Shown in pieces: positions 25,172 through 35,364 of a DNA stretch of 35,365 nt. Source of the DNA: an uncultured Oscillospiraceae bacterium (GTDB lineage Bacteria; Bacillota; Clostridia; Oscillospirales; Oscillospiraceae); NCBI GenBank assembly GCA_947624395.1, contig CANQKA010000013.1:1-35365 (forward strand). Reading direction: 5' to 3'. The notes under the pieces were generated by a model. That model did not search any database, had not been told where the DNA came from, and was given only the letters and a program-made list of their open reading frames with translations. The position numbers and the translations under genes are program-made. Each line of letters opens with the position of its first letter. Positions within the stretch are counted from its first letter, which is position 1.

Positions 25172-25303
25172 TCTCTCCCCCAGTCAGCGCCAAAGGCGCT
25201 GACAGCCCCCTCGTCAGAGGGGGCCATATTCTGTACCACGTAGTGAATCAGCCTCCCTCTGACGAGGGAGGTGGCGCGGCGTAAGCCGCGACGGAGGGAG
25301 AGA
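25172..25303 (+). repeat. Multi-hairpin repeat type A, copy 1
   Basis: About 132 bp, bounded by TCTCTCCCCC and GGAGGGAGAGA. In order it holds the hairpins AGCGCC-AAA-GGCGCT, GCCCCCTC-GTCA-GAGGGGGC, a non-conserved centre, CCTCCCTC-TGAC-GAGGGAGG and CGCGGC-GTAA-GCCGCG. It begins three bases after the response-regulator stop codon. A second copy lies inverted at 32137-32269. No transposase is present, so it is a non-autonomous element or a REP-like sequence. Confidence 0.88.
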
Positions 25304-25388: not shown

Positions 25389-26303
25389 ATGGAATACGTC
25401 TTACGCACGGCGGGGCTATGTAAGCGCTACCGCCACTTCACGGCCCTGAACGGCCTTACCATGCACGTGCCCAAGGGGGCCATTTACGGCCTGGTGGGGC
25501 GAAACGGGGCGGGCAAGACAACGCTCATCCGCCTTATCTGCGGGCTGCAAGCGCCCACCGGCGGCAAATATGTCCTGTACGGCCGGGAGAACACGGACCG
25601 GGACATAAGCCGCGCCAGACGGCGCATGGGCGCGGTGGTGGAGACGCCCTCAATTTATCTTGACATGTCCGCCACGGACAATTTGAAGCAGCAGTACCGG
25701 GTGCTGGGGCTGCCGTCTTTCGAGGGCATACCGGAGCTTTTGGAGCTGGTGGGCCTGGAGGACGCGGGGAAGAAAAAGGCACGGCATTTCTCCCTGGGCA
25801 TGAAGCAGCGTCTTGGCATCGCCGTGGCGCTGGCCGGTGACCCGGACTTTCTGGTGCTGGACGAGCCCATCAACGGCCTGGACCCCCAGGGCATCATTGA
25901 AATTCGTGAGCTCATATTGCGCCTCAATCGGGAGCGTCAAATCACCGTGCTCATATCCAGCCATATCCTGGACGAACTTAGCCGCCTCGCCACCCACTAC
26001 GGCTTCATCGACGGCGGGCGGATGGTGAAGGAGATGTCCGCCGAGCAATTGGAGGCTGCGTGCCGGAAGTGCGTGCGCCTCACGGTCACGGACACGGCGG
26101 CGTTGGCCCGGGTGCTGGACGGCATGGGCGCGGAGTATAAAATTCTGGACGAGCGGACCGCGGACGTGTACCAAAAGCTGAACGTGTCCCGGCTGACGGC
26201 GACGCTGGCCGGCGAGGGCTGCGAGCTTCTGGACATGCGGGAGCGGGACGAGAGTTTGGAGAGCTATTTCGTCTCCCTGGTGGGAGGTGGAAGCCGTGGG
26301 TGA
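25389..26303 (+). CDS. ABC exporter ATPase, bacitracin/lantibiotic-resistance type
   Basis: Nucleotide-binding subunit of an ABC-2 type transporter thought to expel or detach membrane-active peptides. The 304 residues show Walker A (GRNGAGKTT), the acidic Q-loop variant (AVVETPSIYLDMSATDNL) typical of BcrA-like proteins, the signature SLGMKQRLG, Walker B (FLVLDEPINGLDP) and H-loop (ISSHILDELSRLA). The C-terminal 80 residues are the family regulatory extension. GGAGG at 25377-25381 is seven bases from the ATG. It overlaps the first permease gene, so all four ABC genes and the kinase gene form one operon. Confidence 0.92.
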   Translation: MEYVLRTAGLCKRYRHFTALNGLTMHVPKGAIYGLVGRNGAGKTTLIRLICGLQAPTGGKYVLYGRENTDRDISRARRRMGAVVETPSIYLDMSATDNLKQQYRVLGLPSFEGIPELLELVGLEDAGKKKARHFSLGMKQRLGIAVALAGDPDFLVLDEPINGLDPQGIIEIRELILRLNRERQITVLISSHILDELSRLATHYGFIDGGRMVKEMSAEQLEAACRKCVRLTVTDTAALARVLDGMGAEYKILDERTADVYQKLNVSRLTATLAGEGCELLDMRERDESLESYFVSLVGGGSRG

Positions 26304-27123
26304 ACTCTTGCGGGCCGGGTTCGCCCGACTGTGGCGTGCCCCGGTGTTCTGGCTGGGCGTGGCGTTCATGGCCGCGTGGGGCGGCATGGTCTGCTACAGC
26401 GCATGGGACGGCTCCCGGAACAACATGGTGGTCTACTTTATGGGCGACCTGTGCCGGTACCACTGCATCGCGGCGGTGTTCCTGCCCGCCGTGTTCTGCG
26501 CGCTGTTTCTGGGTACGGAGTATGAGCACGGGGTCATTCGCAATAAGCTGGTGGCGGGCAAGAGCCGGAGCGCCGTGTATCTTTCCGGCCTCGTCGTGAG
26601 CCTCACCGCCTGCTTTATCATGATCGCGGCCTATTTCCTGCCGGTGGTGTGCGTCGGCCATTTCTTCACCGAAGGGCTGGGGATAGCGCCCGGTATGCTG
26701 GCGCTGATTATTGCGGGAGAGCTTCTCATGGTCGCGGCGCTGTGCGCCCTGTGCGTGCTGGGCAGCATGCTCATATCCCGCAAAGCGCTTTTGGCGGTGA
26801 CGCTGCTGCTGGTCACGCTGGCGGGGCTGGCCGTGGGCGCAAATTTGGAGGGCCGGTTGGAGGAACCGGAGTTTAATCATGTCGTCATGATGAACGAGGA
26901 GGGTGAACTGGCCGAGTCGGATAGGGAGAATCCCAGCTATCTCCGGGGCCGGGAGCGGGAGGTCTACCAGTTCGCGGCGGACTTCCTGCCCACGGGACAG
27001 GCGCTGCTTTATAACTTCGATATGGTGGTCCACCCGGTGCGGATGTGCCTTTACTCGCTGCTCATTTTCCTCGCGTCCACCGCCGGGGGCCTTGCCGCCT
27101 TCCGCCGGAAGGACCTGAAATAA
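26296..27123 (+). CDS. ABC-2 type permease, first of three paralogues
   Basis: Membrane subunit with six predicted segments. It begins GELLRAGFARLWRAPVFWLG, carries the conserved block FLGTEYEHGVIRNKLVAGKS after the second segment, and ends AAFRRKDLK. A large outside loop between the fifth and sixth segments (about 60 residues, with Glu-rich MMNEEGELAESDREN) may meet the peptide. GTG 26296 was chosen because GGAGG at 26283-26287 is eight bases away; the GTG at 26287 overlaps that site. Length 275 residues. It overlaps the ATPase gene by eight bases. Confidence 0.9.
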   Translation: MGELLRAGFARLWRAPVFWLGVAFMAAWGGMVCYSAWDGSRNNMVVYFMGDLCRYHCIAAVFLPAVFCALFLGTEYEHGVIRNKLVAGKSRSAVYLSGLVVSLTACFIMIAAYFLPVVCVGHFFTEGLGIAPGMLALIIAGELLMVAALCALCVLGSMLISRKALLAVTLLLVTLAGLAVGANLEGRLEEPEFNHVVMMNEEGELAESDRENPSYLRGREREVYQFAADFLPTGQALLYNFDMVVHPVRMCLYSLLIFLASTAGGLAAFRRKDLK

Positions 27124-27135
27124 GGGGGCGGGGAT

Positions 27136-27948
27136 ATGGGAAGTCTTATCCGCTCCCATTTGGCGCGGCTCGGGAAAAGCCCGGTGTTCTGGCTGGCCCT
27201 GGCCGTCATGGTCCCCTATGGCCTGGGCCTTTCCGGCTCAGCTGCCGGGGAATATCAAAGCGGCTCCGCCGGCCCCGGCCTGTGGGGCCAGGTCCTGTGC
27301 GGGCCGGGGCTGATGATGGGCATCATTCTGGCGGCGGTGTGCAGCCTGTTCTTCGGCGCGGAGTACGCCGACGGGACCATCCGCAATAAGCTCATCGCCG
27401 GCCACGGGCGGGCGAGCATCTATCTGGCGACCCTGGCGGCCAGCGTTCTGGCGGCGCTGGCGCTGTACGCCGTGGCGCTGCTGGCCTCGCTGCCCAATCT
27501 TCGCTGGCTGGTGCGCTTTCCCGCGCCGGAGATGAAGACCCTGGCGCTGTGTATTGCCGGGACGGCGCTGCTGCTGGCGGGGTATTGCTCGGTGTGCGGC
27601 TTGCTGTGCATGCTGGTCCAGCGCCGGTCGGTGCTGGCGGTGGTGCTCCTGCTGCTGATGGCGGGCCTCTTTGTCGTCTCCATGCAGGTGCAGGACGCCT
27701 GGGAGACCGCCACCGCCGGGGGCATGCAGATGACCGTCAACGCCGCCGGAGAGCAGCAGTTCGTCTTTCACGAGCCGGGTCAGGCGGATGCCGTTACGGC
27801 CTTTCTCTACGACGCGCTGCCCGGTTGTCAGGCGTACCGGTACATGGACATGGAGGCCACGCCACGGATGCTGGCCTGTTCGGCGGGGCTGACCGCGCTC
27901 ACCACGGCCCTGGGCCTGGTCCTGTTCCGGCGAAAAGACATACGGTGA
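27136..27948 (+). CDS. ABC-2 type permease, second paralogue
   Basis: Same design as its neighbours: LIRSHLARLGKSPVFWLALA at the start, FFGAEYADGTIRNKLIAGHG after the second segment and LVLFRRKDIR at the end. The outer loop (about 50 residues: METATAGG-like region ETATAGGMQMTVNAAGEQQ) differs most from the other two, as would be expected if it faces the ligand. The start follows GGGGGCGGGG with a 12-base gap from the previous stop. 270 residues. It is closest to the third paralogue. Confidence 0.9.
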   Translation: MGSLIRSHLARLGKSPVFWLALAVMVPYGLGLSGSAAGEYQSGSAGPGLWGQVLCGPGLMMGIILAAVCSLFFGAEYADGTIRNKLIAGHGRASIYLATLAASVLAALALYAVALLASLPNLRWLVRFPAPEMKTLALCIAGTALLLAGYCSVCGLLCMLVQRRSVLAVVLLLLMAGLFVVSMQVQDAWETATAGGMQMTVNAAGEQQFVFHEPGQADAVTAFLYDALPGCQAYRYMDMEATPRMLACSAGLTALTTALGLVLFRRKDIR

Positions 27949-27961
27949 AGGAGGCGGGGAT

Positions 27962-28771
27962 ATGGGTAATCTCATCCGCGCCCACCTGGCGAGGCTTTGG
28001 AAAAGTCCGGTGTTCTGGCTTGGTACGGCGGCCTCGGCGGCGTCAGGGGCCCTTCTGTGGTTCCCCAACGCCGCGGGACTGGCCGTGGTGCCGCCCATAT
28101 GCTGCGCGGCGGTGTTCAGCCTCTTCTTCGGCGCGGAATACGCCGACGGGACCATGCGCAATAAGCTGGCCGCAGGACACAGCCGGGAGGCGATCTATCT
28201 GGCCACGCTGGTCGCGGCGCTGGCGGTAATGGGGCTGTTTCTGGCCCTGTCCAGCCCCGGCATACTCGTCACCGCCCGGTTATATCCATTCGGGCGCTAT
28301 ACTCCCGGCCAGGGGGCGCTGGCCATCGTCACCGTGGTGCTGGCCTCGGCGGCGACGGCGGCGGTGATGGTCTGTCTGTGTATGCTGGTGCACAAGCGGG
28401 CCGTGCTGGCCCTGGCGCTGGTGTTTCTGGTGCTGGGCGGCGTCATGGCGGCTTCGGCCGTGTACGACGAGATGCAGGCATACGCCGGGTACTGGACGGT
28501 GGAATACGACCCTGTGGAGCCCGCGGAGGGCGAACTGCCCCTGCCGGCGGGGGACGGTCCCGTTCAGGAGCTCAGCGTGTACGTCCCGCCGTCAAAGCCC
28601 CCGGCGGCGCTGAGGGCTTTGGCGCATATTTTGCCAGCTACGCAGGTGTTCCTGGCCGTGGACCCGGGGAACTTCGCCGTACCATGGACCATGCCCCTGT
28701 GCTCTCTGGCCGAGATCGTACTGGTCACGGGGTTGGCTCTGGCGCTGTTTAAGAGGAAAGACATCAAATAA
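27962..28771 (+). CDS. ABC-2 type permease, third paralogue
   Basis: Third tandem copy: LIRAHLARLWKSPVFWLGTA, FFGAEYADGTMRNKLAAGHS and ALFKRKDIK match the second copy almost word for word. The hydrophilic outer loop, about 70 residues (VYDEMQAYAGYWTVEYDP onward), is the least conserved portion. AAGGAGG is eight bases from the ATG. 269 residues. Known peptide-resistance transporters usually have two different permeases, so the active complex may use pairs of these three in alternative combinations (inference). Confidence 0.9.
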   Translation: MGNLIRAHLARLWKSPVFWLGTAASAASGALLWFPNAAGLAVVPPICCAAVFSLFFGAEYADGTMRNKLAAGHSREAIYLATLVAALAVMGLFLALSSPGILVTARLYPFGRYTPGQGALAIVTVVLASAATAAVMVCLCMLVHKRAVLALALVFLVLGGVMAASAVYDEMQAYAGYWTVEYDPVEPAEGELPLPAGDGPVQELSVYVPPSKPPAALRALAHILPATQVFLAVDPGNFAVPWTMPLCSLAEIVLVTGLALALFKRKDIK

Positions 28772-28784
28772 AGGCGGTGTATTT

Positions 28785-29684
28785 ATGGCGGTGCTGGCCG
28801 TGGCGTGCGTCATACTGGCCGGCGTTGCCCTGGCGCTGGGCGGGAAAATTCTGTCCATGCGTCGGGCGGCGCGGGAACTGCTGCGGGAGCTTTCCGAAAA
28901 GCTCTCGGAGGACACCAATACCCTGATCTCCCTGTCCACTTCCGACAGGGAGATGCGCCGTCTGGCGGCGGGGCTGAACCGGGAGCTGCGCGCCCTGCGG
29001 ACCCAGCGGCTGCGGTACCGCCAGGGCGACAGGGAGCTCAAGGACGCCGTGACCAACGTGTCCCACGACCTGCGCACGCCACTGACCGCCATATGCGGGT
29101 ATCTGGCGCTTTTGGAGCGGGAGGATATGAGCGACAACGCCCGGCGGTACCTCGCCACCATCGCCGAGCGGACCGAGGCCATGAAGGCGCTGACGGAAGA
29201 GCTCTTCCGATACTCCGTGATACTGTCCACGGACGGGGACGGCACCCTGGAGCCGGTGGACATGAACGCCGCTCTGGAGGAGGCCGCCGCCGGGTTTTAC
29301 GCCGCGCTGACGGAGCGGGGCATCGAGCCGGTCATCGACCTGCCGGAAGAGCATGTCATCCGCACCCTGGACCGGGCGGGGCTGAGCCGCATTTTCGCCA
29401 ATCTCTTTTCCAACGCCATCAAATACAGCGCCGGTGACCTGCATATCGCGCTTACAGTTGACGGGACCGTATCGTTTTCCAACGCCGCGCCGGGTCTGGA
29501 CCCGGTGCAGGTGGGGCGGCTGTTCGACCGGTTTTTCTCCCTGGAAGCAGCGCGGGAGTCCACGGGGCTTGGTCTCGCCATCGCACGGACCCTGGCCGAG
29601 CGCATGGGCGGGTCCGTCGCCGCCGCGTACGAGGACGGCCGGCTCACGGTGACAATAACGTTTCCAGGTGAGCGCGTAAATTAA
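28785..29684 (+). CDS. Sensor histidine kinase with minimal sensor region
   Basis: Membrane kinase that should phosphorylate the response regulator at 24498. Of 299 residues, only one N-terminal membrane segment (3-23) is visible and there is no outside domain, so stimulus detection probably depends on the ABC transporter, as in BceS/BcrS-like kinases. The dimerisation helix contains phospho-acceptor H94 in VSHDLRTPLTAI. The ATPase domain shows the N-box (IFANLFSNAIKYS), an F-box (FDRFFS) and the G-box (STGLGLAIARTLAERMGG). It lies 13 bases after the third permease. It ends before repeat B, copy 1, which supplies a terminator. Confidence 0.92.
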   Translation: MAVLAVACVILAGVALALGGKILSMRRAARELLRELSEKLSEDTNTLISLSTSDREMRRLAAGLNRELRALRTQRLRYRQGDRELKDAVTNVSHDLRTPLTAICGYLALLEREDMSDNARRYLATIAERTEAMKALTEELFRYSVILSTDGDGTLEPVDMNAALEEAAAGFYAALTERGIEPVIDLPEEHVIRTLDRAGLSRIFANLFSNAIKYSAGDLHIALTVDGTVSFSNAAPGLDPVQVGRLFDRFFSLEAARESTGLGLAIARTLAERMGGSVAAAYEDGRLTVTITFPGERVN

Positions 29685-29704
29685 ATATCTTTTCCTTATG
29701 GAAA

Positions 29705-29822
29705 GGCCCCCTTGTGAAAGGGGGCTGGCATGCGTCAGCATGACTGGGGGATTGTCCTTCATCCAACAGCAATCCCCCCGAGCCGCCATTCGGCGGCCCA
29801 CCCCCCTTTGACAAGGGGGGCT
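29705..29822 (+). repeat. Multi-hairpin repeat type B, copy 1
   Basis: About 118 bp. In order: CCCCCTT-GTGA-AAGGGGG, CATGC-GTCA-GCATG, GACTGGGGGATTG, a loop TCCTTCATCCAACAG, CAATCCCCCC, GCCGCC-ATT-CGGCGG, and CCCCCCTT-TGAC-AAGGGGGG. The middle GGGGGATTG/CAATCCCCC arms form a large stem. The inverted second copy is at 33678-33796. It lies 21 bases after the kinase gene. Confidence 0.88.
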
Positions 29823-29825
29823 TTT
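29801..29825 (+). terminator. Terminator formed by repeat B, copy 1
   Basis: CCCCCCTT (29801-29808) and AAGGGGGG (29813-29820) form an 8-bp stem, TGAC loop, then C and TTTT. The orientation matches the kinase operon. T-run is short. Confidence 0.6.
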
Positions 29826-29893
29826 AGTCGGAGATGTGCCAAATCGCTCAAATCCAACCGTAATGCACGGGGAAAAATCATATACTTTTCAAC

Positions 29894-29922
29894 TGGAAAT
29901 CCCCGGGCGCGGCATCTATAAT
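29894..29922 (+). promoter_or_regulatory. Promoter of the second MATE gene
   Basis: TATAAT at 29917-29922 with a fair -35 (TGGAAA, 29894-29899) 17 bases upstream, giving a leader of about 25 bases. Confidence 0.6.
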
Positions 29923-29952
29923 GTGCCTGCCTCAAGGAAAGGGGGTATTTCC

Positions 29953-31377
29953 ATGACAAAGGACTTGACGACGGGAAGTCCCATGAAGCTTATTCTGGGC
30001 TTTGCCGTTCCTACGCTGTTTGGGATGCTGTTCCAGCAGCTATACAGTATGGTGGACACCATGATCGTGGGCAAGCTGCTGGGGGCCCAGGCCCTGGCGG
30101 CGGTGGGCGCCACCGGGTCCATCAGCTTTCTCATCATCGGCTTCTGCATCGGCGTGTGCAGCGGCTTCGCCATCCCTGTGGCCCGGGAAATGGGCGCAAA
30201 GGAGCACAGCGCCATGCGCCGGTATGTGGCCAACGCCGCGTATCTGTCGGTGCTGTTCGCGCTGGTCATGACCGTGGCGACCTGCGCGCTGTGCCGCGGA
30301 ATATTGACCGCCATGCACACGCCGGCGGATATATTCGCCGACGCCTATCGCTATATCTTCATCATTTTCGCCGGTATCCCCGCCACGTATCTCTATAACC
30401 TGCTGGCGGGGGTGATACGCTCGCTGGGGGACAGCCGCACGCCGGTGTATTTTCTGGCGCTGTCGTCGCTTTTGAACATCGCGCTGGACGTGGCGCTCAT
30501 TTTATGGGCCCGCATGGGAGTGGCCGGGGCCGCGGTGGCTACGGTGGCGTCCCAGACCGTGTCGGGCCTGGCATGCCTTTGGTATGTGCGCCGTCGCTTT
30601 CCCGTTTTGCGCATCACGCGCCAGGAGCGTGGTCTGGACGGGAAGCTGTGCCGGGATCTGTGCGTCATGGGTGTGCCCATGGGGCTTCAGTACTCCGTCA
30701 CGGCCATCGGGGCCATCGTGCTGCAATCGGCCGTCAACGGCCTGGGCAGCCTGTACGTGGCGGCCACGGCCGCGGGCAGCAAGCTAGGCGGGTTCCTGGC
30801 CTGCCCCTACGACGCCATGGGCGCGGCGATGGCGACTTACTGCGGCCAGAACGTGGGCGCGGGCAAGCTGGACCGGCTGGGCCGGGGCGTGCGGGACTGC
30901 TCGGCCCTGGGCTTTGGCTACTGGCTTGTGGCCTATGGGGCGATGCTGGCCTTCGCGCCGGCCTGCGCCATGCTGTTCATAGACGCCGGCGAGGGGGAAC
31001 AGCTTGCCACACTGGTGGCGCTGGTGAGCCAGTACGTGCGGGCCAGCACGGCGTTTTTCTTCCCGCTGGCGCTGGTGAACATCGTGCGCTTTTCCATTCA
31101 GGGAATGGGGTACAGCGTGCTGGCCATTCTGTCCGGCGCGCTGGAAATGGTGGCCCGGATGGTGGTGGGCCGCTGGTTCGTGCCTGCGTTCGGGTACGGC
31201 GCGGCGTGCTTTGCCTCACCGGCGGCCTGGGTCTGCGCGGATATATTTTTGCTGCCGGCGTGCGCGCTGTGCATCCGGCGGCTGCGCCGTGGCCGGGAGA
31301 ATTACCGGCGCTATGAGCGCCGCCGGTCTCTGCGGGTGCTGCACCGGACAAAGCATACACATGATAAGATCGCGTGA
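29953..31377 (+). CDS. MATE-family exporter
   Basis: Second MATE transporter of the window, unlike the one at 15420 in sequence and context. 474 residues, about 12 membrane segments. The N-terminal half shows FAVPTLFGMLFQQLYSMVDT and GATGSISFLIIGFCIGVCSG; the second half shows MGLQYSVTAIGAIVLQSAVN, a conserved pair for this family. The start ATG 29953 follows AAAGGGGG; frame-extending codons to 29836 are upstream of the promoter and were rejected. The following histidine phosphatase gene begins 15 bases later. The substrate is unknown; drug or toxin export is the usual role. Confidence 0.92.
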   Translation: MTKDLTTGSPMKLILGFAVPTLFGMLFQQLYSMVDTMIVGKLLGAQALAAVGATGSISFLIIGFCIGVCSGFAIPVAREMGAKEHSAMRRYVANAAYLSVLFALVMTVATCALCRGILTAMHTPADIFADAYRYIFIIFAGIPATYLYNLLAGVIRSLGDSRTPVYFLALSSLLNIALDVALILWARMGVAGAAVATVASQTVSGLACLWYVRRRFPVLRITRQERGLDGKLCRDLCVMGVPMGLQYSVTAIGAIVLQSAVNGLGSLYVAATAAGSKLGGFLACPYDAMGAAMATYCGQNVGAGKLDRLGRGVRDCSALGFGYWLVAYGAMLAFAPACAMLFIDAGEGEQLATLVALVSQYVRASTAFFFPLALVNIVRFSIQGMGYSVLAILSGALEMVARMVVGRWFVPAFGYGAACFASPAAWVCADIFLLPACALCIRRLRRGRENYRRYERRRSLRVLHRTKHTHDKIA

Positions 31378-32279: not shown

Positions 32280-33569
32280 TTATGAGAAATACGTAAACGC
32301 CATGGGGTTGATGGGGGTGGCGGTGGCGCTGGCCCGTATCTCAAAGTGCAGGTGCGGGCCGGTGGAGTTGCCGGTGGAGCCCACGTAGCCCAGCACCGAA
32401 CCCATACTCACGCTCTGGCCGGCGCTCACGGCGATGCGGGACATGTGGCCGTATACGGTGGTGTACCCGTTGCCGTGGTTGACGATTACGCACTTGCCAT
32501 AGCCGCCGTTCCAGCCGGCGCTGACCACCGTGCCGCCGGCGGCCGACCAGATGGCGGAGCCGTAGCTGGCGCCGATGTCCACGCCGTTGTGGCTGCGGAC
32601 ATAGCCGTACAGGGACAGATACCGGGGCCCGAAGCGGCTGGTGAGATATTTGGTGTAGCTGGGCCACATCATCCAGGTGGTGCCGTCGGCCACATAATTG
32701 GCGGTGTTGGCGCTGAGGCCGAGGGCCGCCTGCTGGGCTGCCAGAGCCGCCAGACGGGCCGCCTCTTCCTTGGCCTTGGCCGCTTGCAGCTCTTTCTCCT
32801 TGTCGATGATGAGCGCCTGGATCTCCGCCTGGGTCGCGGCCTCCTGGGCCAGGACCGCCTCATAGTCCGCCGTGTCCTGCTCCATGCTGGCGATCAGCGC
32901 GCAGGCCGCCGCAATGTCGGCTTCCAGCTGGGCCTTCTTGGCCTCCTGCTCCGTGCGGCGGGCCTCGTTCTCCTTGAACATGGTCTCCGCCTGGGCCTCC
33001 AGGACCTCCACCTTCTGGCGGGCGGCGATGTACTGCTGCTCCAGAGACTCGTCATAGTCCATGACCTCGTTGACCATGTCCAGCCGGGTCAGCAGGTCAG
33101 AAAAGCTGGTGGCGTCGAACAGCACCTCCAGATAGCCCACGTCGGAGCTCTCCTCCATGGCCCGCAGACGGCTCATCCAGAGCTGCTTCTGGTATTCCTC
33201 TTCACGGCGGGCGTCCTCCAGGTCCTCCCGCACGCTCTCCATCAGGCCGTCGGTGATGTCGATCTGCTCCTGGATAACGTCCAGTTCCTCCTGGGCCAGC
33301 ATGTTCCGCTGGTCCAGTATCTCTTTCTTTTCCAGGGTGTTGGCCTTCTCATAATCCAGGCTGTCGATTTCCGACTGGATCTCGTTCATCCGGCCCTGTA
33401 TCTCGTTTTTCTGGCCGTTGAGGTCGTCGATCTCCTTCTGGATCTCCTTGCTGGTGGCCGCTTGCGCCTGAACGCCGGCGCAGGGGGCAAACAGGCTCGC
33501 CGCCAGCACGAACGCCAGCAGCCCGCCCATACCCCGTCGCAGCCACCGGCGCGCTCTTGAGTGGTTCAC
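32280..33569 (-). CDS. Coiled-coil M23 peptidoglycan endopeptidase (EnvC/PcsB-like)
   Basis: Secreted cell-wall hydrolase or activator, likely for cell division or separation. The 429 residues begin with an Arg-rich n-region, a signal peptide (GGLLAFVLAASLFAP) and cleavage after AQA. Residues about 38-295 are a long coiled coil (KEIDDLNGQKNEIQGRMNEI, LEKKEILDQRN). Residues about 310-429 are an M23 domain: His327 and Asp331 in HNGVDIG, the GH in TTVYGHMS and the metal or catalytic residues in HLHFE (406-410). All three zinc-site motifs are present, so it should be active, unlike degenerate EnvC. The start is GTG 33569 because AAGGAGGTC lies just upstream; a longer frame would begin in the promoter. 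Confidence 0.93.
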   Translation of the reverse strand: MNHSRARRWLRRGMGGLLAFVLAASLFAPCAGVQAQAATSKEIQKEIDDLNGQKNEIQGRMNEIQSEIDSLDYEKANTLEKKEILDQRNMLAQEELDVIQEQIDITDGLMESVREDLEDARREEEYQKQLWMSRLRAMEESSDVGYLEVLFDATSFSDLLTRLDMVNEVMDYDESLEQQYIAARQKVEVLEAQAETMFKENEARRTEQEAKKAQLEADIAAACALIASMEQDTADYEAVLAQEAATQAEIQALIIDKEKELQAAKAKEEAARLAALAAQQAALGLSANTANYVADGTTWMMWPSYTKYLTSRFGPRYLSLYGYVRSHNGVDIGASYGSAIWSAAGGTVVSAGWNGGYGKCVIVNHGNGYTTVYGHMSRIAVSAGQSVSMGSVLGYVGSTGNSTGPHLHFEIRASATATPINPMAFTYFS

Positions 33570-33597
33570 GGTGAAGGACCTCCTTCCATATGGAGAG

Positions 33598-33626
33598 ATA
33601 ATAACACCGTTTTGTAATAATTGCAA
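33598..33626 (-). promoter_or_regulatory. Promoter of the M23 endopeptidase gene
   Basis: On the minus strand TTGCAA (33621-33626), 17 bases, then TATTAT (33598-33603). The region upstream is very AT-rich. Confidence 0.75.
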
Positions 33627-33674: not shown

Positions 33675-33696
33675 AAAACCCCCTTGTCAAAGGGGG
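33675..33696 (-). terminator. Terminator formed by repeat B, copy 2
   Basis: On the minus strand CCCCCTT, TGAC loop, AAGGGGG, then TTTT. It faces the direction of the glutamate-dehydrogenase-like gene upstream. Confidence 0.65.
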
Positions 33697-33796
33697 TGGG
33701 CCGCCGCAAGGCGGCTCGGGGGGATTGCTGTTGGACGAAGGACAATCCCCCAGTCTCCGGCTAACGCCGGAGCCAGCCCCCTTTAACAAGGGGGCC
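33678..33796 (-). repeat. Multi-hairpin repeat type B, copy 2, inverted
   Basis: About 119 bp, matching the reverse complement of copy 1 (29705-29822). The central GGGGGATTG, loop and CAATCCCCC block is nearly identical, while hairpin arms differ in step: TCCGGC-TAAC-GCCGGA here against CATGC-GTCA-GCATG in copy 1. Confidence 0.88.
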
Positions 33797-33828: not shown

Positions 33829-35154
33829 TCACAACCCCTTTGCCAATATGGCGTCGGCCAGACGGCGGAAGGCGGCGATACGGGCTCCGGCGCCCAGGTC
33901 GCCTGGGCGGCCGGCCAGAACGGCCTCGTCCCACACGGTGCGGAACACGCTCTCCATGCCGGCGCGCAGCACTCGCGCCGCCTCCCACTGGCTGCAAGGT
34001 TCGTCCCGCCGGCGGTAGGCCATCAATGCCCCGCCGGCCCCGGAGGCGATGGCGGGGCTGTAGGGAACGGCGCCGGCTGCCAGTACCCGTGCGGCCAGCG
34101 CGGTGCAGGAGCGGGGCACGGCCTCGAACACGCCCGTCGGATGGCGGGCCACCAGCCGTCGGGCGTCCTCCACGTCCAGCCGTGCGTGGCCGTCGCAGAG
34201 AAACACCAGCTCCGCCGGGATGTCCCACAGGCCGGGTCCGGGCCGGTATTCCACGCCTGGTGCCCGGATGGCCCACAGCAGCAGCGGCAGCTCCGGCTGG
34301 GCGGCAACTTTGCGCAGTACGGCCAGGGGCAGACCGTCGGGGGCGTATAAACACCCGGAGGCATCCCCCAGGGCGATCACCTGCGCGCCCATGCGGGCAG
34401 CCCGCTCACCGGCCCAGGCCGCAGGACCGTCCCGGCCGGCGATCAGTACGGTCCGGCTTTCCAGGGCTGGCAGTCCCATGTGCCGCAGCGTCAATTCCGC
34501 GAAGGCGCACAGGCCGTGGCCCGTGGCCTGCTGGCGGGGCATGAGCTCCGGCTCCGGCGGGATCGAAAGACCCCGCAGGCATGGGTCCATGGCGGCCAGA
34601 CGCTCATGCTGTCCGGCCAGGTAGTCAAGCTCACGGCGGTGAATAAGCCCCGCCCAGTCTAATGGCCGGAAAGACCGGGGGAGAAAGGGGTAAAGCGCCA
34701 GCATAAAGCCCTGGCAGAACCGGCGGCTCTCCCCGTCGTCCCAGCCCGCCGGCGACACGTCCGCACCCAGAAAACCGCCGCCCAGGGGCAGCCCCGTCAG
34801 ACTGTGCTCCAGCGTAGATTCCAGGGCCAGGGCCTTGGCCGCGGCCATGTCCAGGCCGGTCCGGAACAGCACAGAGCCCCGGCATGGACCCAGAACGGTG
34901 CTGTATTGGATGAAGAACCCCCTGGCCTGGCGGGGCAGACCCCGGCCGTCGGTCCAGAGGATGGGGAAGCAGACGGCCTGTTCCGGCTCGCCCAGCCGCT
35001 CCAATAGCCCTGCGGCCGCGTATCGGGGCCGCGCCTCCAAAAAGGGCGCCAGTGCGCCGTAAAATGTCTCCAGGGCCTGCAAAAAGCCGGTCTCGCCCGG
35101 GTCCCTTGCCGCGGCGGTCCCGTAGGCCCGGCGTATCGATGGGTTTTCTGTCAT
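33829..35154 (-). CDS. Glutamate dehydrogenase-like protein without catalytic residues
   Basis: Intact 441-residue homologue of hexameric glutamate dehydrogenase (usual length about 450) that cannot be a normal enzyme. The fold is recognisable throughout: RGFFIQYSTVLGP, HSLTGLPLGGGFLGADVSP, RRFCQGFMLAL, RRELDYLAGQHERL, WDIPAELVFLCDGHARLDVEDA and the C-terminal RIAAFRRLADAILAKGL. Measured against the known catalytic set of the clostridial enzyme, K89 is R92, K113 is E116, K125 is F128 (LPMGGxKGG reads LPLGGGFLG), D165 is A168 and the active-site Ser near 380 is Ala or Arg. The Rossmann loop GSGNVA reads GRDGPA. ATG 35154 follows GGGAGG. A long intact frame argues for selection, perhaps as a regulatory or structural partner. 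Function unknown. Confidence 0.85.
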   Translation of the reverse strand: MTENPSIRRAYGTAAARDPGETGFLQALETFYGALAPFLEARPRYAAAGLLERLGEPEQAVCFPILWTDGRGLPRQARGFFIQYSTVLGPCRGSVLFRTGLDMAAAKALALESTLEHSLTGLPLGGGFLGADVSPAGWDDGESRRFCQGFMLALYPFLPRSFRPLDWAGLIHRRELDYLAGQHERLAAMDPCLRGLSIPPEPELMPRQQATGHGLCAFAELTLRHMGLPALESRTVLIAGRDGPAAWAGERAARMGAQVIALGDASGCLYAPDGLPLAVLRKVAAQPELPLLLWAIRAPGVEYRPGPGLWDIPAELVFLCDGHARLDVEDARRLVARHPTGVFEAVPRSCTALAARVLAAGAVPYSPAIASGAGGALMAYRRRDEPCSQWEAARVLRAGMESVFRTVWDEAVLAGRPGDLGAGARIAAFRRLADAILAKGL

Positions 35155-35240
35155 ACGCTCCCTCCCACAACTGCGCTTTTTCCTAATCGTATGCCCAGCC
35201 GGGGCCGTCCTATGCGGCGGGGAAATTTCGCATTTTGCCG

Positions 35241-35288: not shown

Positions 35289-35364
35289 GCTGGTATAGCT
35301 CAGTTGGTAGAGCAGCTGATTTGTAATCAGCAGGTCGGGGGTTCGAGTCCGTCTACCAGCTCCA
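35289..35364 (+). tRNA. tRNA-Thr (anticodon UGU)
   Basis: 76-nt cloverleaf with acceptor arm GCTGGTA paired to TACCAGC, T discriminator and encoded CCA. The anticodon arm GCTGA/TCAGC encloses the loop TTTGTAA, anticodon TGT, which reads ACA. D-loop TAGCTCAGTTGGTAGAGCA and T-arm GGTTCGAGTCC are canonical. It runs to one base from the window end, so genes after it are not visible. Confidence 0.97.

Follow-up and report, generated by a model that had tools for sequence, protein, structure and literature searches.

A catalytically dead relative of glutamate dehydrogenase with a predicted sigma-E-type promoter in a genus of uncultured Oscillospiraceae

The locus and its glutamate dehydrogenase-like product

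The window, that is the whole stretch of 35,365 nucleotides analyzed here, comes from an uncultured Oscillospiraceae bacterium. By frame calling, Pfam searches and alignments we defined on its minus strand a coding sequence for a relative of glutamate dehydrogenase (GDH) of 441 amino acids (P0001; positions 33829 to 35154, ATG at 35154-35152 and stop codon at 33831-33829), referred to below as dead GDH. Four nucleotides upstream of the ATG lies a ribosome-binding site, GGGAGGGA (35159 to 35166, minus strand), and a GGGAGGG- or GGAGG-like site is also present upstream of the gene in the relatives listed. This confirms the full-length open frame of 441 codons with its own ribosome site described in the initial annotation, which had left the strand unstated. 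Further upstream, on the minus strand at 35186 to 35215, a sigma-E-type promoter is predicted (GCATA-N17-CATACGAT, -35 at 35215-35211 and -10 at 35193-35186), 31 nucleotides before the ATG, and beyond it a tRNA-Thr(TGT) gene is oriented divergently from dead GDH (35289 to 35364, plus strand).

The next gene downstream, which we do not count as part of the system, encodes a PcsB-like coiled coil with an M23 peptidase (32280 to 33626, minus strand); apart from the window, 5 of 20 stretches compared have relatives of it (6 of 21 with the window). Between the two genes there is a palindromic repeat (33679 to 33794, no strand assigned) with a predicted long hairpin (z -6.2), which is a possible terminator. 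A second copy of this repeat lies at positions 29707-29819 of the window; both copies are of about 115 bases and have CCCCCTTTxACAAGGGGG ends, and weaker single matches to the repeat were seen at 25206 and 32220. The region 25389-31377 carries co-directional genes for an ABC transporter ATPase, three ABC-2 permeases and a histidine kinase; a MatE transporter comes next.

Dead GDH is divergent from a tRNA-Thr(TGT)-tRNA-Tyr(GTA) pair in 15 of the 21 stretches scanned. As for the remaining ones, the window and L091 end at tRNA-Thr, L092, L093 and L096 end earlier, and in genome G019 the dead gene is on a different contig from the tRNA pair. Among the neighbours that were identified, no gene common to all 21 stretches compared was found. 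A CarD-like gene of about 200 amino acids is located near dead GDH, on the opposite strand, in 10 of the 21 stretches (L078:5712-6314, L082:6393-7004 and eight more). In four genomes of a distant subclade an ORF of 105 amino acids lies between the tRNA pair and dead GDH, on the strand of the latter (L087:8551-8868, L088:6901-7218, L089:7264-7581 and L090:4867-5184); the two that were scanned both gave a weak S24-peptidase match, one of them over the cut-off.

Pfam recognized both ELFV domains in dead GDH (ELFV_dehydrog_N and ELFV_dehydrog, 87.4 and 59.3 bits) and, at E-values of up to 1, returned ELFV models only. The alignment to solved hexameric GDHs proposed in the initial annotation runs end to end: 5ijz, which we take to be the C. 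glutamicum GDH, aligned with residues 2-440 at 207 bits, and a profile of the dead family reached 310 bits on solved GDH relatives. As in hexameric NADP/NAD GDHs (5ijz, 3sbo and 1bgv), the two ELFV domains occur in order and at full length, and some structural Gly and Ala residues are retained. In contrast to those enzymes, the dead family is without the catalytic Lys and Asp, the substrate Lys and the Asn of the dinucleotide loop, and has the active-site Ser in one of 28 members. Against the NCBIfam GDH equivalog, dead GDH scored 229 bits, under the cut-off of 536.

We compared the individual residues using the numbering of an active-type GDH from the same genus and functional roles (catalytic, substrate and dinucleotide-loop) that we take from the GDH literature. 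Dead GDH has Arg and Glu at the positions of the two substrate lysines (K92>R92 and K116>E116), Phe at that of the catalytic Lys (K128>F128, GGGKGG>GGGFLG), Ala at that of the catalytic Asp (D168>A168) with Trp at the adjoining position (G167>W167), and Ala at that of the active-site Ser (S381>A379). The dinucleotide loop GSGNVA reads GRDGPA, in which the first Gly and the last Ala are retained, and further changes are K371>I369 and N349>P347. Which residue falls in the D168 column varies with the alignment, the D168 loop being heavily altered: Asp occurs in this column in none of the 28 dead rows and two columns earlier in 11 of them. With this reservation about the Asp, the alignment bears out the losses first noticed by the initial annotation (catalytic Lys and Asp, both substrate Lys, Ser and the GSGNVA loop).

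These losses extend across the family. K128, K116, D168 and N244 are retained in none of the 28 aligned members and S381 in one, and all five are retained in 41 out of 41 comparison GDHs. The K92 position is Arg in 26 of 28 members (Trp in one, a gap in one), most members have Leu, Phe or Ala in place of the catalytic Lys, and the dinucleotide loop differs between them. In the window's own copy the lysines and polar residues of the pocket are replaced by Arg, Glu, Trp, Ile and Phe; since the pocket is changed and the dinucleotide loop varies within the family, use of the cofactor appears unlikely. Judged from its sequence, the product of 33829-35154 is a predicted catalytically dead, full-length relative of hexameric GDH. 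An AlphaFold2 model computed from four sequences (the window and L033-L035) had a mean pLDDT of 35.1 and a pTM of 0.21; this pLDDT is too low, and the fold and oligomer of dead GDH therefore rest on homology.

As reference we used 172 columns that are at least 95% conserved among 40 active-type GDHs, a column being counted as kept when at least 80% conserved in the dead family; L075 (G017), which is split in the assembly, was excluded from these counts and from those on the promoter. The dead family keeps 16 of 36 Gly, 9 of 14 Ala, 5 of 8 Leu and all 3 Trp columns, and none of 9 Asn, none of 5 Ser, none of 3 Thr and one of 11 Lys columns, so that what it retains is, on this count, mainly residues of presumably structural role (Gly, Ala, Leu and Trp). 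Another 49 columns, including Arg92, Asp102, Trp247, Cys268 and Asp311, are newly conserved; 23 of them fall within residues 261-320, the best conserved stretch of the family, and no Lys or His was found among the 49.

Distribution, active GDH and selection

Orthologues of dead GDH were found in 29 of the 35 genomes of the genus, 27 of them full-length, one N-terminally cut (G025) and one a C-terminal fragment (G005). The G025 copy (L024) is truncated at the contig end, was read from an internal GTG and has no upstream region, and G005 holds fragments only, one of the dead family (96% to L026) and two of active type. A tree of 69 rows places the aligned dead members, 28 in number, together on one side of a branch with a support of 100/100; the tree was rooted at its midpoint, and the program warned of long branches and unusual composition. 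The duplicates L001 and L033-L035 and the distant GDH L036 were left out of the tree and of the counts. The dead-family profile gave 497-747 bits on the 28 dead copies that are complete or mostly so and at most 378 bits on the active-type GDHs of the genus. In profile searches no genome except our own exceeded 353 bits among 394 sampled from the order, and none except our own passed 1e-103 among 398 sampled from the phylum (the two samples overlap, and at most four first-look candidates were scored per genome). Within the samples searched, a single Oscillospiraceae genus, known here from MAGs alone, has so far yielded the dead family. A contig search with dead GDH led to four loci, three of which belong to the dead family. 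The nearest named records, at 96% identity, are MAGs labelled uncultured Oscillospiraceae with the isolate names 'Lapin', which suggests rabbits as their source.

The dead gene is absent from six of the 35 assemblies (G006, G008, G017, G020, G023 and G024). G006, G008 and G017 are without the tRNA-Thr(TGT) site and G020 has the tRNA-Tyr half only, and absence is therefore not decisive in these four. In G023 and G024 the tRNA pair is intact and the dead gene is missing. Both have sigG-like genes, so that, if those two bacteria sporulate, the protein would not be a genus-wide requirement for sporulation.

Active-type GDH, whole or in fragments, occurs in 25 of the 35 genomes: six have it alone, 19 have both copies (whole or fragments) and ten have the dead copy alone (G000, G002, G009-G013, G018, G025 and G033). 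In these ten, made up of our own genome and nine relatives, no active-type GDH was found. Nine of the ten form one clade of the tree with a completeness of 73-97%, which makes it very unlikely that an active GDH is missing from the assembly in all of them. A GDH partner is therefore not required, and partnering with an active GDH, one of the functions put forward in the initial annotation, finds no support as a general explanation; a sensor or a scaffold, the other two functions named there, may apply. The second PF00208 match of our own genome (C69, 26.6 bits) was rejected as an active GDH, being malic-enzyme-like (named by eye), and the weak PF00208 matches in other genomes (at most 26.3 bits) were assumed to be of the same kind. 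Nine of the ten dead-only genomes have a GOGAT match of about 490 bits, and G025 (73% complete) gave weak matches only. In five genomes some 240-280 bases separate the active-type gene from a sigma-factor-like gene, measured to the part of the latter that was matched (G001:C6, G014:C18, G021:C14, G022:C17 and G034:C22), and the active-type frame of L053 (G016:C60) seems to extend about 100 residues beyond the usual stop.

All 27 full-length dead copies have open frames, which alone is a weak test because the GC content of our own copy is 71% and simulations predict just 1.1-2.4 stops per pair. Pairwise dN/dS was 0.09-0.34 (22 closest pairs listed) with bootstrap upper limits of at most 0.43 (14 pairs). 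In neutral simulations of 500 runs, which used the fourfold-site substitution pattern, the observed amino-acid changes were fewer than in every run for 10 out of 10 pairs, two of which share L003. Nine genome pairs with both copies gave a dN/dS of 0.15-0.31 for the dead gene versus 0.016-0.068 for the active one, and dN of the dead gene was 1.9 to 31 times that of the active gene; dS was unequal as well, by up to about threefold between the two copies, and pairs with L053, where trimming seems to drop about 100 N-terminal residues, use 345 codons. This higher dN is what speaks for a decaying pseudogene that is open by chance. Set against it are the 27 open frames, the dN/dS values well below 1 and the rejection of neutrality in every pair; by the simulations and the dN/dS this reading is already refuted, and we give it a negligible probability. 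Dead GDH is a predicted pseudoenzyme maintained by purifying selection, not a pseudogene. The selection for some role that the initial annotation had suggested is thus upheld, since evolution is non-neutral, instead of running at neutral rates, and the gene, instead of being absent from close relatives, is present in them.

A conserved, predicted sigma-E-type promoter

The predicted promoter, which points to sporulation, was not noticed in the initial annotation. In 16 aligned upstream regions GCATAGGAC-N12-GCATAGGAT (GCATACGAT in two) is found shortly before the start codon of dead GDH. With a strict pattern (at most one mismatch) we obtained one match in each of 21 of the 35 genomes, always at dead GDH, and 35186-35215 is the sole match in our own genome; the reversed control gave one match in the 35 genomes. 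Out of the 14 genomes without the strict pattern, six are geneless, five have distant copies, G026 has a spacer one base shorter, and G005 and G025 offer no upstream sequence. The looser pattern ATA-N16-18-CATAnnAT lies upstream of 26 of the 27 dead copies, 24-42 nucleotides before the ATG and with a spacer of N16 or N17, versus 0.04 copies expected from shuffles; the 27th copy (G019) has CATAAGCT instead. The same looser pattern was found before none of 40 active-type GDH genes, and the promoter motif upstream of none of 13 SASP genes. In the five distant dead copies the -35 is CATATT (ATATT form) and the -10 box is unchanged. A second sigma-E-type match, ATA-N16-CATATTAT, was observed in L026, where it overlaps the first one, 20 nucleotides before the ATG. 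No sigma-70-like promoter was found on the gene's strand between dead GDH and the window end.

We also scanned eight genomes with GCATA-N16-18-CATAnnAT and obtained 31 matches versus nine for the reversed pattern. Eight of the 31 are at dead GDH, five are before spoIID orthologues and 18 are elsewhere without a sporulation tie. The spoIID orthologue promoters, present in five of the eight genomes, read GCATA-N16-CATAGTAT or CATAATAT, and the -10 of dead GDH is CATAGGAT or CATACGAT versus CATAnTAT at spoIID. This single positive-control gene family was met by a pattern-first scan, and its identity was checked with Pfam for four of the five proteins.

Our own genome has a SigE at 385 against a cut-off of 339, a SigG that passes one of its two cut-offs, and a SigF-like protein under the cut-off, and SASP genes are present in 12 of 14 genomes searched, our own included. 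Sigma-G was rejected for the dead-GDH promoter: the -10 is without the TA of the sigma-G form, TA in the -10 being part of the sigma-G consensus, and the motif is at none of the 13 SASP upstream regions. A simple sigma-G pattern was also found at none of these 13, and that pattern is therefore no positive control. Sigma-K was rejected as well, as the AC of a main-clade -35 would be 13 bp from the -10 and not 16-18 (counted by eye). In C. difficile, according to PMC3789822, sigma-E promoters combine an ATA -35 with a CATA-type -10, classically spaced by 16-18 bp, and spoIID is among the sigma-E genes; the motif of this consensus is present in the upstream regions of 26 of the 27 dead copies. 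The conserved promoter indicates that dead GDH would be transcribed by the mother-cell sigma factor, sigma-E.

The double box might instead be an operator for a DNA-binding regulator and no sigma-E promoter, in which case the link to sporulation would be spurious. The boxes GCATAGGAC and GCATAGGAT are alike, and in the main clade both boxes are GCATAGGA, 21 bp apart (the second box being GCATACGA in two copies), so that a direct-repeat operator could explain the main clade; the 18 out of 31 scan matches without a sporulation tie fit it too. It fits less well with the five distant copies, where the upstream box is CATATT and the -10 box stays constant, with the spacer of 16-17 and the position 24-42 nucleotides before the ATG, and with the similar form carried by the five spoIID genes. 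We regard an operator as fairly unlikely.

Proposed role and comparison with known proteins

On balance we find it probable that dead GDH is a non-catalytic GDH paralogue that is transcribed by sigma-E in the mother cell during sporulation and acts by binding or assembly. After asymmetric division, sigma-E in the mother cell would switch the gene on, the dead protein would self-assemble through its retained GDH fold, and the assembled protein may then build into or dock on a spore-forming structure; alternatively, its remodelled surface and pocket may bind a partner or a ligand. For this reading we infer that sigma-E uses the promoter, that these uncultured bacteria sporulate, that dead GDH oligomerises and that it has a bound target. 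Among the modes of action we give the largest share to the structural or docking form, over a sensor. The more specific proposal, namely that a genus-specific dead GDH was recruited as a mother-cell structural or docking spore protein and outlived active GDH in one clade, is a tentative one, possible but short of what we would call probable.

Other roles have to be weighed against this. Dead GDH might be a nitrogen or 2-oxoglutarate regulator: by binding a metabolite or a transcription factor it would adjust glutamate synthesis through GOGAT, perhaps while the cell sporulates. The presence of GOGAT at about 490 bits in nine of ten dead-only genomes is consistent with this, and the conserved Arg92 (26 of 27 letters) and the new Trp167 and Ile369 suggest a remodelled pocket. 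The CarD family acts on RNA polymerase, and the CarD-like gene that 10 of 21 stretches carry near dead GDH, oriented opposite to it, could be counted in favour of a regulator; however, no regulator gene is on the strand of dead GDH or adjoins it in all stretches (part of the neighbours being identified), and the substrate Lys and the Ser are lost. GDHs that bind a regulator are known, the active RocG and GudB of B. subtilis acting on GltC (PMC10938345 and PMC6978683). We judge this role unlikely, and still less likely that of a new enzyme with its pocket rebuilt for a different reaction. The 49 newly conserved columns, with Arg92, Asp102, Trp247, Cys268 and Asp311, would fit such an enzyme, but there is no Lys or His among them, the site of the former catalytic Lys is in most members occupied by Leu, Phe or Ala, and the dinucleotide loop varies. 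Less probable again is a regulatory subunit in a mixed hexamer with active GDH, as in Thermus thermophilus GdhA/GdhB. Such hexamers are known (PMC9570180) and 19 of the 35 genomes have both copies, whole or in fragments; yet ten genomes keep the dead copy with no active-type GDH found, dN/dS in the dead-only clade is 0.09-0.32, and the promoter motif is absent from the 40 active-type GDH genes.

The closest parallels to the proposed non-catalytic paralogue come from a few inactive or regulatory GDHs. T. thermophilus GdhA, a regulatory subunit with no catalytic activity according to PMC9570180, is like dead GDH by this description a GDH paralogue and inactive; it works with an active partner, GdhB, whereas ten genomes with dead GDH show none. 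The cryptic GudB(CR) of B. subtilis 168 is inactive through an in-frame tandem repeat (PMC10938345), in contrast to dead GDH, where residue loss is common to a genus-wide clade. Staphylococcus aureus YwlG, a GDH-like hexamer 11% identical to GudB, is a possible pseudo-GDH that binds a hibernation factor (PMC9522360); both it and dead GDH are candidate pseudo-GDHs by description, and in Pfam dead GDH matched ELFV models only. B. subtilis RocG affects spore formation and quality, but it is active and thought to act via glutamate catabolism, unlike dead GDH (PMC11841064). Among the known proteins compared, there is no dead hexameric-type GDH that spans a genus and has a sporulation-type promoter of its own, and in the open-licence literature we found no dead GDH relative with so complete a loss of the active site. 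Described dead GDH relatives are few; here there are ten genomes in which no active GDH was found, measurable selection and a promoter that predicts time and cell. The family would be a natural experiment in the turning of an enzyme of central metabolism into a developmental protein, and is a candidate new spore factor for a group of uncultured bacteria.

Finally, we observed that the sigG gene of G022 is split by about 16 kb (L186, G022:C13:6500-24200). The insert carries a large serine recombinase, a ParB-domain protein, a DNA methylase with a type III restriction-like helicase and a SIR2-domain protein, and resembles a skin-type element that harbours defence-type cargo. A sigG piece covering model positions 90/91-253 only was seen in ten genomes of the genus, and both pieces are on one contig in G022 and G020. 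In G020 (L187, G020:C9:10300-25800) the two pieces enclose a fructose-bisphosphatase gene and are separated by about 14 kb, an arrangement unlike that of G022.
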